From assembly GCA_030595925.1 (NCBI GenBank), contig JAUVLC010000096.1:1-9191 (forward strand): 9,191 nt of DNA, written 5' to 3'. This document shows, one piece after another, positions 2,953-9,191 of the stretch. Source of the DNA: Clostridia bacterium (GTDB taxonomy: Bacteria > CBDUZB01 > JAGLHV01). Within the stretch, counting starts at the first letter, position 1. Each line of letters starts with the position of its first letter. The translations under genes and the position numbers were made by a program. Under the pieces are notes generated by a model. The model did not search any database and was not told the origin of the DNA. It worked only from the letters and a program-made list of their open reading frames with translations.

Positions 2953-2981
2953 TTGACAAAAAAGTTAAAAAATGATATCCT
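2953..2981 (+). promoter_or_regulatory. sigma70-type promoter for small RNA copy 1
   Basis: TTGACA at 2953-2958, a 17-nt spacer, and TATCCT at 2976-2981. The predicted start, about 2987-2989, falls at the first base of the 53-nt block shared with RNA copy 2. The equivalent spacing is kept at copy 2. Confidence 0.75.
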
Positions 2982-2986
2982 TGTAA

Positions 2987-3047
2987 TGAATCACGATGAG
3001 AGGGCACACCTAAGGTTTCGTCCGAAGGTTACTCCCTCTTTTTTTTT
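2987..3047 (+). ncRNA. putative small structured RNA, copy 1
   Basis: A 53-nt block (2987-3039), starting TGAATCACGATGAGAGGG, recurs without a mismatch at 7691-7743. It is preceded by a promoter with 17-nt spacing and followed by a run of nine T's (3039-3047). AGAGGG (2999-3004) pairs with CCCTCT (3034-3039) directly before the T-run, giving an intrinsic terminator shape. Inside, ACC/GGT (3008-3016) and TTC/GAA (3017-3026, loop GTCC) can form small hairpins, or ACCT can pair with AGGT at 3026-3029. I do not recognise it as a known riboswitch or ribozyme. It points toward the 3' end of the minus-strand NYN gene and overlaps its last codons. A leaderless peptide starting MNHDERAHLRF is an alternative reading. 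Expression is inferred. Confidence 0.65.
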
Positions 3048-3537
3048 ATATTCTTTACATACTCTAACTTTCTTTTAAGCTCATTCATAAAAACAATATA
3101 AGGCTTTATTTTCCTAAACAGGGAAGAAAATTTGTTTTTATTTGGAATCATTAATTTTAACAGTTTGTTATTTTTTATAAGATAATCCACTAAACAATAA
3201 AAGTCACCATCCCCGCTAACAATCAAAGCTCTATCGTAGTTTTCATATTCAATCATTGCATGAAGAACCAATTCAGCGTCAACATTCCCTTTTACTTTCT
3301 TGTTTTTTAATTCAAGTGTTGGTTTGAAAACCAAAATATACCCGTACTGCTGTAAATTAATATACAAATCTTGATTTTGGGCTACATATCCTATAAAAAG
3401 AAAAGCCTTTGTCACATTATATTTATCCTGAAGGTATCTTCTAAATCTTCTGAAATTTAACACCCAATTTTGCTCACGAATTGAAAGGTTTAAATTTGGC
3501 TATCTATAAATGCATAATTATTTTGTTTTTTTATCAT
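3029..3537 (-). pseudogene. NYN-domain (LabA/DUF88-like) ribonuclease, frameshifted near the N-terminus
   Basis: The true start is probably ATG 3537-3535, with AAGGA five nt upstream. It reads MIKKQNNYAFIDSQ and then stops; adding one A at the A-run near 3495-3497 joins FIDSQ to NLNLSIREQNWVLNFRRF and the long frame beyond. The body carries the family pattern KGNVDAELVLHAM and the acidic SGDGDF motif, and ends KKKRE with TAA at 3031-3029. Repaired length is about 168 residues, normal for stand-alone NYN proteins, which are PIN-like metal-dependent RNases. The break separates the first catalytic Asp (FID) from the rest, so the product is probably inactive unless the shift is a read error or is recoded. 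The C-terminal codons lie inside the small-RNA terminator, and the ribosome site lies in the ORF6N tail. Confidence 0.85.
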
Positions 3538-3549
3538 TTGATTCCTTTT

Positions 3550-3769
3550 CATCTCCTAAACCCAATTGCGGGGTTTTCCCGGGGATGTCATTAGTTCCTG
3601 GATTACCTGAAATACTATTGCAAATTGTTTGTCGTATTTCTTTTCTATTGCTTCTATTTTTCGTTGCATATCTTTATGAGTCATGATAATTTACTTCAAT
3701 CCGGTAAATGTTCTCATAATTTGAATATTTACTTGCTAAATACACCAATATACTTTTCGTTTTTTCCAT
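3550..3769 (-). pseudogene. ORF6N copy D, internal-deletion remnant
   Basis: Only the two ends of an ORF6N unit remain. The 3' part encodes VNIQIMRTFTGLK, then a stop, then [20 protein letters not shown] and AIVFQVIQELMTSPGKPR, homologous to the tails of copies A and C. The last residues are altered by loss of several A's, so a TAG at 3558-3556 replaces IGFRR. The 5' part (about 3730-3769) matches the leader upstream of copy B: MEKTKSILVYLASKY in both. The two parts join at AAGTAAATATT, where copy B has AAGTAAGTATT in the leader and other copies have GTAAATAT inside the gene, so a deletion at short homology is likely. The whole DNA-binding core is gone. Confidence 0.8.
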
Positions 3770-3813: not shown

Positions 3814-5118
3814 TTACATTCCGATGTCTCCTTTTCTTTCCTCAAATTCCTTAATCATTTTTGCAATCTCGAAAGCAAAAAATAACGGAAGGAAATAAAC
3901 ATCACACTGTTTATATTTTTTTATTTTCATTACATCTTTATTTAAAATAAAAGCTCTTTTAGAATTATACTTATCTATAAATGCTTTTACATTTTTAAAA
4001 ATCTTTTCACTTTTAGAGGCTTTAACCTCTATCGGAATTAATTCTCTCCCGATCTGTATAACAAAATCTATTTCTGTTTGATTTCTTTTTCTCCAAAAAT
4101 ATATCCTTTGATCAATAGATAGATTTTTTTTCAATTCCCAAAACATACAATTTTCCACAAGTTTACCCAAATCCATCCGAAAATCTAAAAGAGAAAAATC
4201 ATTCAAAATACTATTACGGATACCATTATCATAAAAATATGTCTTATGCGCCTTCACTAATTCTTTTTCTCTATTTGTATAAAAAGGAGGCAAAAGGAAA
4301 TTTACAAAAGTATGTTCAAGCATAAATATATCTTTTCTAATATAATACCTCTCTATCCCTAATTTGGCAGCTATATTATCAATAACAAGTATATTTCCGA
4401 TTCGATTTGCCATAATTTTAATAAACCGGTTAAAATGAATAATTCTTTCTTGTTCTATTAATCCTCTTATATCTTTTTGAAAATAAGTAGTATAAAGATT
4501 AACCAGCATATCTTTTTTTTCTTCTATCTGATTTTCCAGGACAACCGCCGGCATTCCACCAAAAACGAGGAATTCAGCAAAATCTTGTTGATAAGAATCA
4601 ATTATTGATTTGGGCAAAACATCTCCAAATTTAATTTCGGGAAGACTTCTATCCTTAAATCTAATATATTCATAAAAATCTAATGGAAATATATGAACTT
4701 CTCTTTTTCGACCTGCAAGAGATTCTTTCATTTTTTTCTGTATTTCTACTGAAGAAGACCCGGAAACAACAATTTTTATATTCTCTCTATCATCATAAAA
4801 AGACTTAAGTAATGAATTTACCTGTGGTATATATTGAAATTCATCAATAAATAAATACAATTTTTCTTTGCTCAATGAAGGATAAGTATATTTAAGATGC
4901 CTTAATATATCTTCATACCGTTGGGAAAAAATATCCAGTTGGTGCGGCAATTCCATATTAAAATAAGCAGTAGTTTTTCCTTGAGAAGAAAGTTTTTGTT
5001 CCATACATTTAAGTAAAGTCGTCTTACCTACTTGACGACTTCCTATTAATATTATAATTTCTCTTCTGTCAAGAAGTTTGTATAATTTTGATAATATTTT
5101 TCGTTCTTTAACTACCAT
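3814..5118 (-). CDS. AAA ATPase with DUF4143 C-terminal domain
   Basis: 434 residues; ATG at 5118-5116, preceded by AAGGGTGAGG, TAA at 3816-3814. N-terminal AAA_14-type ATPase: Walker A GSRQVGKTT at 26-34, Walker B LYLFIDE at 86-92, then VVSGSSSVEI with the polar sensor-like segment and AGRKREVHIFPLDFYEY. The C-terminal part fits DUF4143 and includes EIDFVI followed by LIPIEVKAS, a PD-(D/E)XK-like arrangement. Length is typical for this large prokaryotic family, whose members are cytoplasmic and mostly of unknown role, often placed in variable islands. No membrane segment is seen. It stands alone, with its own promoter at 5159-5187, between ORF6N remnant D and repeat R3. The frame is intact. 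Family assignment is firm; biological role is not. Confidence 0.93.
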   Translation of the reverse strand: MVVKERKILSKLYKLLDRREIIILIGSRQVGKTTLLKCMEQKLSSQGKTTAYFNMELPHQLDIFSQRYEDILRHLKYTYPSLSKEKLYLFIDEFQYIPQVNSLLKSFYDDRENIKIVVSGSSSVEIQKKMKESLAGRKREVHIFPLDFYEYIRFKDRSLPEIKFGDVLPKSIIDSYQQDFAEFLVFGGMPAVVLENQIEEKKDMLVNLYTTYFQKDIRGLIEQERIIHFNRFIKIMANRIGNILVIDNIAAKLGIERYYIRKDIFMLEHTFVNFLLPPFYTNREKELVKAHKTYFYDNGIRNSILNDFSLLDFRMDLGKLVENCMFWELKKNLSIDQRIYFWRKRNQTEIDFVIQIGRELIPIEVKASKSEKIFKNVKAFIDKYNSKRAFILNKDVMKIKKYKQCDVYFLPLFFAFEIAKMIKEFEERKGDIGM

Positions 5119-5279: not shown

Positions 5280-5822
5280 TCATCTCCTAAACCCAATTTT
5301 TTTGCGGGGTTTTTCCGGGGGTTCCGGGGATGTCATTAGCTCACGGATTACCTCAAAAATTGCGCTTATTTCTTCGTCCTTCTTCTCCATTCTTCTTTCC
5401 AGCTGATTTAGTTTTTGAGCAAGTTCTTTATGCGTAGAAATCATTTCCCGAAGCCTAATAAATGTTCTTATTATCTGTATATTAACATGAATAGCGACTT
5501 CGCTATTTAATACACTTGAAAGCATTGCCACTCCGGGTTCTGTAAAGGCATACGGAAAGCTGGTAGAATGTTTTAATGTTTTGAACCGGTCACAATTTGT
5601 GACCAGTTCATTTTTCTCGCTTTTATTGAGCTCAAACATAAAATCAGGAGGAAACCTTCCTTTATTTCTTTTAACTGCCTGATTGAGAGCTTTTGTGGGC
5701 ACTCCATATAGCTTAGCCAAATCCCTATCCATCATCACTTTTTTGCCTCTTATTATGAGAATATTGCTCTCTATAGATTTCCGGGGGACTAAATGTGTTA
5801 GCGGTTTTCTTTTGCTGACCAT
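5280..5822 (-). CDS. ORF6N-domain DNA-binding protein, copy B (intact)
   Basis: 180 residues; ATG at 5822-5820 with AGGA seven nt upstream; TGA at 5282-5280. The ORF6N domain spans about residues 17-105: ESNILIIRGKKVMMDRDLAK, LYGVPTKALNQAVKRNKGRF, then PPDFMFEL and [20 protein letters not shown]. The rest is helical, with a charged stretch ELAQKLNQLERRMEKKDEE that should form a coiled coil, and a conserved tail [12 protein letters not shown] shared with copies A and C. The family includes phage antirepressor-like DNA-binding proteins; targets are unknown. This is the only complete copy of four in the window. It lacks the small-RNA segment that copies C and D have between the gene and the end repeat. 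A short frame overlaps its start. Confidence 0.9.
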   Translation of the reverse strand: MVSKRKPLTHLVPRKSIESNILIIRGKKVMMDRDLAKLYGVPTKALNQAVKRNKGRFPPDFMFELNKSEKNELVTNCDRFKTLKHSTSFPYAFTEPGVAMLSSVLNSEVAIHVNIQIIRTFIRLREMISTHKELAQKLNQLERRMEKKDEEISAIFEVIRELMTSPEPPEKPRKKIGFRR

Positions 5823-5952: not shown

Positions 5953-6756
5953 TTATAATACCTCCCGCAATCTCTTAAATCTCTCAAATATATCTTGCCT
6001 TAAATCATCAATATATTCATCTTGACCATTTTCTTTTTCTACCATTAAGCACCCTCGACTCGATTTCCGTTCAAAATACTCGTTTAAATTTTTAGAAACA
6101 TCCTTAAAATACCCTTTTTTTCTATATTGCTCTATTTCTTCTAAAATAACATCAATATCTGGAGCATATCTTAATATGAAATACATATAGTGCAAATCTT
6201 TTGCTTTTTTTTGCTCATTTTCTCTATCTATAAAGGTTGCTCCCTTATGGAATAGAAAAGATGCCGGTTTAGGACAATAAATTTTATAAGTTTTATTATT
6301 TCTTTTATTCTTTACATTTATAGGAATTCTCTGTTCTAAAAGAAAATCAAATTTATCTATTTTATTAACATTAATCTGGAATCCAATAAACTTTTCAATA
6401 GTATCTCGTGTGATATCTGAAAAAGCAATAAAATCTATTGGAATTTTTCCCCCTTTATATAATACAACAGGGTATATTTTATTTATCCTTAAATGTCTTT
6501 CCTTATAATCTAAAGGAGAAAGTCTCTCAAAAATAGTTTTGGGGTAAACTTTAGTTATTGTATCACTAAAACCAAAATCAATATCAACGGTAGTAACTAA
6601 TTTTACTACAAGATTATCCCATAAGAATCTTGAATAGATATAAGACATCCAACCACCAACAACTGTAAGGTCCTCGAGATAATTCTTCAAATCCTCTAAA
6701 ACATTAAAAAACTCTACTTCAATCTGGTCAAGATTAATCAAGATATTTCCCTTCAT
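5953..6756 (-). CDS. nucleotidyltransferase toxin of a type IV (AbiEii-like) toxin-antitoxin system
   Basis: 267 residues; ATG at 6756-6754, TAA at 5955-5953. The N-terminal half has a nucleotidyltransferase pattern: VVGGWMSYIYS with G34-G35, then TVDIDFGF with D58 and D60 as likely metal ligands. Further in are KIPIDFIAF and KPASFLFHKGATF, typical of the long minimal-NTase proteins (NTP_transf_8/AbiEii-like). It overlaps the upstream antitoxin gene by 23 nt, so translation is likely coupled; its own ribosome site is weak. AbiEii toxins are cytoplasmic nucleotidyltransferases that modify RNA and stop growth; the same role here is inferred from family and gene order. The frame is intact. A non-toxin nucleotidyltransferase cannot be excluded. 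Confidence 0.82.
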   Translation of the reverse strand: MKGNILINLDQIEVEFFNVLEDLKNYLEDLTVVGGWMSYIYSRFLWDNLVVKLVTTVDIDFGFSDTITKVYPKTIFERLSPLDYKERHLRINKIYPVVLYKGGKIPIDFIAFSDITRDTIEKFIGFQINVNKIDKFDFLLEQRIPINVKNKRNNKTYKIYCPKPASFLFHKGATFIDRENEQKKAKDLHYMYFILRYAPDIDVILEEIEQYRKKGYFKDVSKNLNEYFERKSSRGCLMVEKENGQDEYIDDLRQDIFERFKRLREVL

Positions 6757-7414
6757 CTTTTAAGATTCCTTCAAGGTGTTCTGCATGTTCTCTACCACGA
6801 GGCTGAAAATTATATAAATCAAGATATAATTGAATATTAGAAACGACATTATAACCATTTATTTTCCGGGAATTAAAAAATAGACTGTTTTTATAATAAG
6901 GACGGATTATGTTAAAATTACCCCCCCTTACCAGCTCTTTTAAATCTAATTTCTGTCTCAGTTCTAAAACATCTTTGTCCCAATTTTGAGTGTCAAGATA
7001 CAGATACACTTGATCCGTCTTTACAAAAGAAGTTATTAAATTAGCCCCTGTATGCAGAGTAACCGCATATTTCTTATTTTTCAAATAAGTCCTTAGTTTT
7101 CTTAAAATATTTTTATCCGGAGTATAATAAGTATATATTTCATTTAAGTCAAATTTATATTTTCTCACCCAATCAGCTACAAGTTTATATTTATTTGTAA
7201 GCAATGTATAAGTCTTGGGACCTTTATTTATTCTTTCTACATAGCCCTGTTTTATCATTACTTCTAATACACCCTGTGCCATTCCAATACTTACTCCCGG
7301 AAAATTTATAAAATCTCTTATTACCCATTTTTTACCAGGATAATGAATCATTTTCCTTAAGATTAGTGTAGCCTTGTCAGCAAAAATATTTTTCAATTTC
7401 TTGTTTTTTTTCAT
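6734..7414 (-). CDS. AbiEi-like winged-helix antitoxin/repressor
   Basis: I place the start at ATG 7414-7412, which has AAGGTG seven nt upstream, giving 226 residues; a GTG at 7441 lies too close to the predicted transcript start. Stop at 6736-6734. The N-terminal ~75 residues read as a winged helix (IRDFINFPGVSIGMAQGVLE, then MIKQGYVERI). The C-terminal part has the family signature NVVSNIQLYLDLYNFQPRG and REHAEHL. AbiEi proteins neutralise AbiEii and repress their own promoter; the operator-like dyads at 7415-7474 fit that. It forms a two-gene operon with the overlapping nucleotidyltransferase downstream. The frame is intact. Confidence 0.85.
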   Translation of the reverse strand: MKKNKKLKNIFADKATLILRKMIHYPGKKWVIRDFINFPGVSIGMAQGVLEVMIKQGYVERINKGPKTYTLLTNKYKLVADWVRKYKFDLNEIYTYYTPDKNILRKLRTYLKNKKYAVTLHTGANLITSFVKTDQVYLYLDTQNWDKDVLELRQKLDLKELVRGGNFNIIRPYYKNSLFFNSRKINGYNVVSNIQLYLDLYNFQPRGREHAEHLEGILKDEGKYLD

Positions 7415-7474
7415 AATGTTCACCTTTATCCTAATGTTCACTATTTAATGAACAATATACAACAAGTGAACATT
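7415..7474. promoter_or_regulatory. operator-like inverted repeats at the AbiE promoter
   Basis: AATGTTCACT at 7433-7442 and its exact complement AGTGAACATT at 7465-7474 form a 10-bp dyad. A further direct copy AATGTTCACC is at 7415-7424 and TGAACA at 7449-7454. The four half-sites bracket the -10 box, the spacer and the start region. AbiEi-type antitoxins are known to bind inverted repeats in their own promoters, so autorepression is the likely function. Confidence 0.75.
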
Positions 7475-7656: not shown

Positions 7657-7685
7657 TTCACAAAATAATAAAAAAATGGTATTTT
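7657..7685 (+). promoter_or_regulatory. promoter of small RNA copy 2
   Basis: TTCACA at 7657-7662, a 17-nt spacer and TATTTT at 7680-7685. It is weaker than the copy 1 promoter, but spacing to the conserved RNA block (5 nt from the -10 box) is the same. Confidence 0.6.
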
Positions 7686-7690
7686 TATAG

Positions 7691-7752
7691 TGAATCACGA
7701 TGAGAGGGCACACCTAAGGTTTCGTCCGAAGGTTACTCCCTCTCTTTTTTTT
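7691..7752 (+). ncRNA. putative small structured RNA, copy 2
   Basis: The 53-nt block at 7691-7743 is identical to copy 1, although the upstream 90 nt have drifted. AGAGGG and CCCTCT form the closing stem, and a C plus eight T's (7744-7752) follow, so an intrinsic terminator is kept. The RNA converges on ORF6N C, whose TGA lies 17 nt beyond the T-run. A GTG-initiated leaderless peptide (NHDERAHLRF...) is also possible here. The identity covers the stem and loops and both ends of the transcript, which favours an RNA. Confidence 0.65.
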
Positions 7753-7768
7753 ATCATTTAATTCCTTT

Positions 7769-8242
7769 TCATCTCCTAAATCCTATTTTTTTGCGGGGTT
7801 TTTCTGGTGGTGTCATTAGTTCCTGGATTACCTGAAATACTATTGCAAATTGCTCGTCGTATTTCTTCTCTATTGCGTCCATCTTTCGCTTTAAGTCTGC
7901 ATGGGTTGTAAGCATTTGTCTGAGGTTAGTAAAAACCCTCATAATCCGGATATTTACTTCTATTGCTCTCTCGCTATTTAAAACACTTGAGAGCATTGCT
8001 ACTCCATTTTCAGTAAAAGCATAAGGTTTATATCTTAACCCCATTTTATCCCCAGAATTGGAAGTGACAATTTGGCACCTCCAATTTTCAAACTCCTCTT
8101 CTGTTAATTGAAACATAAAATCCAAAGGGAATCTATCAATATTTCTACGCACCTGGCGTTTTAAGTTTTTTACTTCTACACCACAGAGTTCGGCTAAATC
8201 CTTATCCAACATTACTTTGTGTTTTCTAAGTAAAAAAATCTT
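7769..8242 (-). pseudogene. ORF6N-domain protein, copy C, 5'-truncated
   Basis: The frame is open from a TAA at 8245-8243 and reads KIFLLRKHKV, then MLDKDLAELCGVEVKNLKRQ; the homologous copy A begins about 15 residues earlier. The only ATG (8212-8210) falls inside the domain, after the first strand, and has no ribosome site. The rest is well kept: [30 protein letters not shown], a helical K/E-rich segment and the tail [12 protein letters not shown] with TGA at 7771-7769. Homology to copy A ends near 8242, where unrelated DNA with a REP-like hairpin begins. Most likely it is a truncated gene; translation from 8212 would give 147 residues missing the domain's N-terminus. Confidence 0.8.
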
Positions 8243-8290
8243 TTACTTTACCCCTACAACAATTCAAAGATAATACGGGTCTCCTTTCCC

Positions 8291-8348: not shown

Positions 8349-9191
8349 TCATTTGGATTTTAAATATTCATTTATTGACTGAGCAGCGCGCTTACCTATT
8401 CCCATTGCCTCTATAACCGTAGCCGAACCGGTAACGATATCCCCTCCCGCCCAGACCTTTTCTTTAGAGGTTTTCCCTGTAATCTCATCAGCTATAATAT
8501 AACCCCACTTATTAAGCTTTAAATCCGGAACAGTAGAAAGAAATAAAGGATTGGCTTTGGTCCCCACCGCTATAATTACCTCATCCACCTCTAATTCAAA
8601 CTCCGAATTCTCAATGGGTAAAGGCCTTCTGCGGCCGGATTCATCCGGCTCTCCTAATTTAACTTTTAAACATTCCATACTACTCACCCATCCCTCTTTT
8701 TTACTTAAAATACGGACAGGCACAGTTAAAAATTTCATTTCAATTCCTTCTTCCTGGGCATTTTCAATTTCTTCTTTTCTTGCCGGCATTTCCTCCATGG
8801 AGCGACGATAAACAATATAGACATTCTCCGCTCCCAGGCGTAACGCTACCCGAGCGGAATCCATTGCTACATTTCCTCCCCCGATTACCGCTACTTTCTT
8901 CCCTCTCTTAATCGGTGTTGCATACTCAGGAAAACGATATGCTTTCATTAAATTAGCCCTGGTAAGAAACTCATTAGCCGAGTAAACGCCGTTTAAATTC
9001 TCACCGGGAATATTCATAAATCTGGGTAATCCCGCTCCGATACCCAGAAAAATTGCCTTATATCCTTGAGCAAATAAATCATCCAGGGTATATGTTTTTC
9101 CAATAATTTGATTATTCTCAAGTTCTACACCAAGATGCTGAATATATTCTACTTCCGTTTGCACAATTGCTTTGGGCAAACGAAACTCCGG
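8349..9191 (-). CDS. gltA: NADPH-dependent glutamate synthase small subunit-type oxidoreductase (partial, N-terminus beyond right edge)
   Basis: 280 residues are visible, entering as PEFRLPKAIVQTEV and open to the window edge; the real start lies outside. TGA is at 8351-8349. Visible parts: the middle of the FAD domain (YKAIFLGIGAGLPRFMNIPG), the NAD(P)H-binding Rossmann segment KVAVIGGGNVAMDSARVALR, IVYRRSMEEMPARKEE, and the C-terminal FAD signature VWAGGDIVTGSATVIEAM. This is the GltA/GltD family, which passes electrons from NADPH through FAD and FeS clusters; related members include NfnL/SudA-type subunits, so glutamate synthesis is likely but not certain. The frame is intact. A diverged paralogous fragment lies at 2446-2707. 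Confidence 0.92.
   Translation of the reverse strand, partial: PEFRLPKAIVQTEVEYIQHLGVELENNQIIGKTYTLDDLFAQGYKAIFLGIGAGLPRFMNIPGENLNGVYSANEFLTRANLMKAYRFPEYATPIKRGKKVAVIGGGNVAMDSARVALRLGAENVYIVYRRSMEEMPARKEEIENAQEEGIEMKFLTVPVRILSKKEGWVSSMECLKVKLGEPDESGRRRPLPIENSEFELEVDEVIIAVGTKANPLFLSTVPDLKLNKWGYIIADEITGKTSKEKVWAGGDIVTGSATVIEAMGIGKRAAQSINEYLKSK

Follow-up and report, generated by a model that had tools for sequence, protein, structure and literature searches.

In type III toxin-antitoxin systems (ToxIN, CptIN, and TenpIN), a small structured RNA and a small ribonuclease form a compact module of patchy distribution, and the RNA is encoded upstream of the nuclease in one operon, as tandem repeats. 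In the type II VapBC systems, the toxin is a PIN-like nuclease of about 150 residues, which belongs to a mobile module and has an antitoxin protein gene beside it. OMEGA/IscB/TnpB and TIGR-Tas also combine a nuclease gene with an adjacent noncoding RNA, in this case one with a variable guide part. NYN domains (PF01936) are predicted to be ribonucleases from their PIN-like fold (Anantharaman and Aravind, 2006, as cited in PMC4229858). For the NYNs of LabA-like proteins, VPA0982 (2qip), and MARF1 (5yaa), the searchable literature yielded no description of a small RNA dedicated to them. Such an RNA partner would give direct access to what bacterial NYN proteins act on, since it is likely to be bound by the protein, to inhibit it, to assist it, or to be cut by it (ligand, inhibitor, cofactor, or substrate).

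The locus described here lies in a contig of 9,191 nt from a Clostridia bacterium (JAUVLC010000096.1 of assembly GCA_030595925.1; the whole stretch is called the window), and it pairs a small RNA gene with a convergent NYN gene. Like the type III systems, it joins a small structured RNA and a small predicted ribonuclease in a compact, patchily distributed module, with tandem RNA units at some loci. Unlike them, the RNA and the nuclease gene are convergent and would be transcribed separately, the nuclease is NYN/PIN-like (Pfam NYN, with the fold of 2qip and MARF1) and not of the ToxN, CptN, or TenpN type, and the RNA is a single unit at most loci and tandem at few. The pair thus differs from type III systems in operon layout, toxin fold, and tandem repeats, and by analogy it would work most like an RNA antitoxin with its nuclease. 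It shares with VapBC the mobile module and a PIN-like nuclease of similar size, but neighboring genes vary, no conserved antitoxin protein gene lies beside NYN, and the RNA takes that place. It differs from OMEGA/IscB/TnpB and TIGR-Tas in that the leader of the RNA is fixed, without a variable guide part, and the nuclease is unrelated. An initial annotation of the window had matched the RNA to no known family, and Rfam agrees: the window gave no match at permissive settings, and eight related loci gave only tRNAs at gathering scores. No paper linking NYN to a small RNA was found among open-licence full texts, and PADLOC returned only a generic LabA-like NYN model. The RNA-NYN pair therefore appears to be new, being absent from Rfam, curated protein families, and searchable papers. 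The RNA also occurs in Omnitrophota and Patescibacteria, which have few cultured members, and the pair is thus a compact genetic device, open to experiment, from bacteria that have received little study.

Two copies of a small RNA gene in the window

The initial annotation had pointed to a 53-nt block that is identical in two places although the DNA upstream, promoter boxes included, has diverged. Sequence comparison and repeat listing confirm this for positions 2987-3039 and 7691-7743. The block is part of a repeat family (D7) of 109 nt that is 88% identical, and all mismatches fall outside the 53 nt, where 13 of 56 positions differ (~77% identity). With the other 56 nt at that level, the chance of 53 identical positions by drift is near 1e-6 by our arithmetic; recent gene conversion is another possible source of the identity. 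The -35/-10 pair with a spacing of 17 nt, ending 5 nt before the block, and the stem with a T-run that closes it were likewise found in both copies as annotated (Table 1), and the stem and T-run are kept in homologues. The promoter boxes prove nothing by themselves, because the window is AT-rich and a promoter scan of the window alone was at chance level (40 found, 37.5 expected). The fold of both copies is moderately better than that of shuffled sequences (z of -1.9 and -3.0). It is the comparison with homologues that settles the existence of a structured RNA.

Table 1. Positions of the RNA copies, their signals, and the adjoining genes in the window.
Feature	Position	Strand	Remarks
-35 box TTGACA, RNA copy 1	2953-2958	+	family promoters score high against shuffles
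-10 box TATCCT, RNA copy 1	2976-2981	+	17 nt after -35; 5 nt to block
Small RNA copy 1	2987-3047	+	R1 model 76.5 bits; fold; identity to copy 2; probable 5' end 6-9 nt past -10 box, 3' end at end of T-run
Unpaired 5' leader AATCACGAT, conserved	2989-2997	+	ATCACGAT in nearly all 27 homologues
Outer stem, 5' arm GAGAGGG	2998-3004	+	compensatory changes at all 7 pairs
Apical hairpin GGTTTCGTCC; GG and GTCC invariant	3014-3023	+	homologue alignment
Outer stem, 3' arm CCCTCTT (3034-3040), and T-run to 3047; intrinsic terminator	3034-3047	+	
NYN nuclease gene, convergent with RNA copy 1	3029-3537	-	stop inside 3' part of RNA
ORF6N tail remnant	3568-3735	-	directly behind NYN start
-35 box TTCACA, RNA copy 2	7657-7662	+	
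-10 box TATTTT, RNA copy 2	7680-7685	+	17 nt after -35; 5 nt to block
Small RNA copy 2	7691-7752	+	R1 model 78.6 bits; NYN gene absent here
Junction, NYN missing	7744-7768	.	T-run of copy 2 continues into TTTTTTTATCATTTRATTCC, the sequence at NYN start in copy 1
ORF6N gene, 5' part broken; incidental neighbor convergent with RNA copy 2	7769-8254	-	

Homologues of the RNA

A third copy in the same genome (G000:C159:7404-7503) is diverged, being 78% identical over 100 nt, and keeps TTGACA-17-TATATT, the leader GGATCACGATGAGAGG, the GGTTCCGTCC loop, and CCTCTC with a T-run. A nucleotide search of 60 relatives found RNA matches in this genome only, and the RNA is absent from two genomes of the same genus. 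GTDB contigs were scanned with the pattern ATCACGATGAN{8,26}GGTTNCGTCC, which returned at least 116 stretches, some of them by chance; among the matches listed, ~75 are true homologues, almost all with a spacing of 14, as in the window, or one base off. Their hosts are Patescibacteria groups, Omnitrophota, Elusimicrobiota, Nitrospirota, Chloroflexota, Planctomycetota, Aerophobota, and a Deltaproteobacterium. BLAST of the RNA against phage and plasmid records gave no match, and exact 42-nt and loose patterns in viral contigs gave no real homologue or chance matches only.

Because the scan pattern fixes both leader and loop, their invariance in the resulting alignment is built in, and a covariance model (R1) was therefore run on whole genomes. 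In 27 homologues found by R1, for which the leader is not required, the leader is still nearly invariant; the loop varies (TTCCGT, TTTTGT, TTCTGT, CTCGT, and GCAAGT) between the invariant GG and GTCC. Among 92 aligned RNAs, 97.2% of the cells in nine pairs are standard pairs, and compensatory changes, G-U included, occur at all seven pairs of the outer stem. The covariation score is 0.298; shuffles give 0.157, with none of 500 as high, and slid versions do not exceed 0.193. The alignment used was fitted to the model, which favors the structure; an earlier MAFFT alignment agrees. Loss of stem pairs without compensation had been named as evidence against an RNA, and the pairs behave in the opposite way. 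The best -35/-10 match within 45 nt scores 10.0 of 12 on average in the family and 7.3 in shuffles. The distance from the end of the -10 box to ATCACG is mostly 6-9 nt, which would put the conserved leader at the very 5' end of the transcript.

Promoter, leader, stem, and terminator are thus kept in ~100 homologues elsewhere and in the C159 copy. Covariation, promoters, and alignment support what had been proposed from the window, an independent structured RNA of ~60 nt under constraint and not a peptide gene. As defined by these comparisons, the RNAs of this family are preceded by their own promoter of the sigma-70 type and carry the unpaired leader AUCACGAU; the stem covaries and bears the apical hairpin GG-UUYCGU-CC, and an intrinsic terminator closes the unit. 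Most genomes carry a single copy. Variant hairpins without an internal loop are found at L206:4919-4978 and L180:6100-6147, the former 46 nt downstream of a canonical copy. Two further features of the leader were considered and set aside. A pseudoknot between leader and loop (alignment positions A8-U38, C9-G37, and G10-C/U36) is possible, with G-A or a gap in four, and is unprovable because these positions are nearly invariant. The leader resembles neither the sarcin-ricin loop nor the 3' end of 16S rRNA in more than short common words, and the AGAGG part varies with compensation.

Association of the RNA with NYN genes

At 75 of 101 RNA sites, an NYN gene is convergent with the RNA. It mostly ends within some 60 nt of the RNA stem, with its stop beside or inside the RNA terminator, and several of the remaining sites, judged by eye, have the NYN tail alone. 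Among 285 Omnitrophota genomes, the RNA was found in 32 (~11%) and the NYN subfamily, at a cut-off of E<=1e-30, in 28. The RNA is present in 27 of these 28 carriers, adjoining the gene wherever coordinates were compared, and the 28th (G384) has a weak, diverged RNA of 17 bits at the right place. Among 379 Patescibacteria genomes, 65 (~17%) have the RNA and 113 have NYN; NYN is adjacent and convergent at 55 of 78 RNAs, mostly at -11 to +13 nt from its stop, and 28 of the 34 closest NYNs have the RNA of the model adjacent to them. RNAs without NYN exist, and their preservation equals that of RNAs with NYN (73.0 bits against 70.5, p 0.10). Tandem RNA units occur at L182, L206, L248, L438, and L441. 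On this comparative evidence, the RNA and the convergent gene for a 160-residue NYN (PIN-like) nuclease form one genetic module. In the initial annotation, the RNA was said to converge on an ORF6N/NYN gene; the link with NYN holds across phyla, whereas ORF6N is incidental and was seen opposite the RNA at three places only: copy 2, C159 (where its tail alone is present), and L225. An antisense role toward ORF6N was rejected, since ORF6N is merely an occasional neighbor.

The NYN gene of the window matches PF01936 (E 9e-10). An AlphaFold model for the NYN subfamily (pLDDT 92) matches VPA0982 (2qip, E 5e-9) and the NYN domain of mouse MARF1 (5yaa), and these and the LabA-like proteins are the best matches by sequence and structure, sharing fold and acidic residues. 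The NYNs of the window type differ from other NYN nucleases in forming a tight subfamily linked to the RNA, with 35 invariant columns in 28 sequences, including the acidic D12, D87, D110, and D112. The modeled fold and the acidic active site are thus those of NYN nucleases, and ribonuclease activity is predicted from the fold. No promoter is recognizable before NYN (8.2 vs 7.8 in shuffles).

Phyla are intermingled on the tree of NYN proteins, on which the RNA subtypes form clusters (13 changes, compared with 23 when shuffled). Distances between RNAs and between NYNs are correlated (Mantel 0.44, 0 of 999 permutations). Neighboring genes vary and are mostly unrelated housekeeping genes; enrichment in defense islands is weak, with SNF2 helicases at 5 of 75 neighbors, a count without a control set. 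One pair, found via the NYN protein, is in a contig classed as viral (L447:1977-2532), beside a gene that we read as terminase-like, and the stem of its RNA is re-paired as GGCUGGC/GCCAGCC. From these sequence patterns, the RNA-NYN pair behaves as a small transferable module.

Many NYNs that lack the RNA of the model face another unit. In three of four inspected exceptions and, in our reading, ~14 of 20 more distant cases, the gene has opposite it a hairpin-terminator unit that begins with AUCAC[G/C]A or a sequence close to it; examples are ATCACCAACGG...CCCTGTAAGGTTCGTCCTTGCAGGG (L411) and AATCACGAGGGAG... (L437, L439, and L443). No RNA is recognizable at the other six of these 20 distant Patescibacteria NYNs (L429, L430, L432, L435, L442, and L444). 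The motif AT[CT]A[CT][CG]A is present in the convergent 3' flank at 53 of 64 NYN loci, compared with 5 of 64 in the 5' flank and 11 of 64 on the other strand of the 3' flank; thus, the hairpin changes with the NYN clade and the leader stays. We tentatively suggest that these loci belong to a large, new class of modules, in which an NYN ribonuclease goes with a dedicated convergent small RNA whose 5' leader, AUCAC[G/C]A, is universal and whose hairpins differ by clade. The mechanism of such modules (cofactor, fixed guide, or active-site decoy) would be unlike known toxin-antitoxin or RNA-guided systems. A distant NYN at L365 (~1990-2120; also L364) faces a promoter, hairpin, and terminator whose sequence is unrelated (GCCTTGAGAAGAATTTCAAGG...GCCCGT...ACGGGC TTTTTT), and this unit may represent another class of NYN-linked RNA.

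Possible function of the RNA-NYN pair

The reading that we favor, with a probability of about 0.5, is that the RNA restrains a mobile NYN ribonuclease in the manner of an antitoxin. The folded RNA would bind its own NYN protein and block it, the leader or the apical loop sitting at or near the active site. Because the RNA would act in this way, cells carrying NYN would depend on its steady supply. Were that supply to end, because the module is lost or transcription is shut off, unbound NYN would cleave the RNA of the cell. Convergent transcription may also keep NYN mRNA low. Restraint is favored because NYN is almost never found without the RNA, whereas the RNA is sometimes found without NYN, and because of the promoter asymmetry, the co-divergence, the occasional tandem units, and the decay of NYN. 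Indeed, a near-consensus promoter for the RNA and no recognizable one for NYN would fit an RNA made in excess. If this reading is true, the pair represents a new layout for RNA-controlled nucleases.

The strongest objection is that orphan RNAs seem too well preserved for a bare antitoxin after loss of its toxin, unless they shield the cell against incoming NYN; a fixed-target or trans-acting role would also explain their preservation. Co-divergence of RNA and NYN is also expected from mere co-inheritance. It also counts against restraint that NYN lies mostly among housekeeping genes, outside defense islands, and that the broader Patescibacteria set includes some NYNs without a recognizable RNA.

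The constancy of the leader across phyla, set against hairpins that vary, could equally point to a fixed target. The RNA would then be a cofactor or fixed guide in an NYN-RNA ribonucleoprotein, directed to one conserved target by the leader AUCACGAU. We consider this possible but unlikely. The leader is near-invariant and unpaired also in RNAs with other hairpins, it stands at the very 5' end like the seed of an sRNA, and the rarity of NYN without the RNA is accounted for. However, its complementarity to the 16S/23S rRNA of its own genome is not beyond shuffles, its complement is not convincingly enriched in NYN genes as 8-mers (1 vs 1.7 expected), and intact RNAs without NYN are left unexplained. 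As 7-mers, the complement occurs 18 times in NYN genes against 9.4 expected (largest shuffle 15), an excess that probably reflects conserved codons, because the matches are mostly at a fixed codon position.

The orphan RNAs, which keep promoter, structure, and leader, would be expected if the RNA were an independent trans-acting small RNA that the linked NYN matures or degrades, and the order of 5' single strand, hairpin, and terminator is also sRNA-like. This role is improbable, for it leaves the near-absence of NYN without the RNA unexplained, and targets common to so many phyla are hard to imagine; none was found in rRNA or NYN mRNA.

The two genes converge, and NYN stops within or next to the RNA terminator (mostly -11 to +13 nt), so that NYN read-through would carry a perfect complement of the RNA, which could then be mainly a cis-antisense or transcription-interference device limiting NYN mRNA. 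A plain antisense role, one of the possibilities raised in the initial annotation, is, however, quite improbable. The overlap is limited to the last NYN codons, the conserved leader and apical loop are farthest from the NYN coding region, orphan RNAs are intact, and conserved leader, loop, and compensatory stem changes are not needed for antisense. It is very improbable that the block is a DNA-level element, such as the end of a mobile cassette or a recombination site: the window is full of repeats and broken genes, and one copy is in a viral contig, but a strand-specific promoter and T-run accompany nearly all homologues, most genomes have a single copy, and the compensatory pairs include G-U. 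A short peptide (ATGAGAGG...) is practically ruled out by the alignment, in which the ATG present in the leader of most copies is missing in 11 of 92 (e.g., ATAAGAGG) and its reading frame is not conserved, with lengths of 3, 5, 11, or 17+ residues by subtype.

State of the module in this genome and other features of the window

The NYN gene of the window, the only member of its subfamily in this genome, is frameshifted near 3495-3500, directly after FIDSQ, and is therefore probably a pseudogene, or the frameshift is an assembly error in this MAG. The gene order at copy 1 is ORF6N tail, NYN, and the convergent RNA. At copy 2, NYN seems to have dropped out between two T-tracts, and in C159 the RNA faces an ORF6N tail and NYN is absent. 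Thus, none of the three intact RNAs has an intact NYN next to it.

Several other features lie near the two copies. A gltD-like gene has its C-terminal part in two copies (2446-2707 and 8349-9191; 246 nt, 93% identical), and the short copy ends exactly at the start of a GTTTCGGGGACGTTGTCAAGATGTCAAG repeat. A GGGACGTTRTCAARATGTCAAG repeat occurs four times, at 1538, 2719, 5219, and 7537, each time with an ORF6N end next to it or an RNA copy downstream; these repeats are perhaps the ends of a mobile element. A near-palindrome, AAGTTTCCCAATTGGAAACTT, at 2863-2903 (~1648-1675 in L003), ~60 nt upstream of the RNA promoter, is recognizable in all three genome copies and is a possible operator or terminator. 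At 5953-7441, an AbiEi-like regulator and a nucleotidyltransferase form a pair resembling type IV toxin-antitoxin systems, which adjoins a DUF4143 ATPase (3814-5118) and ORF6N genes matching the candidate defense families PDC-S01 and PDC-S05. The ORF6N gene at 1581-2098 is broken by a frameshift, and among the four ORF6N places only 5280-5822 looks intact.
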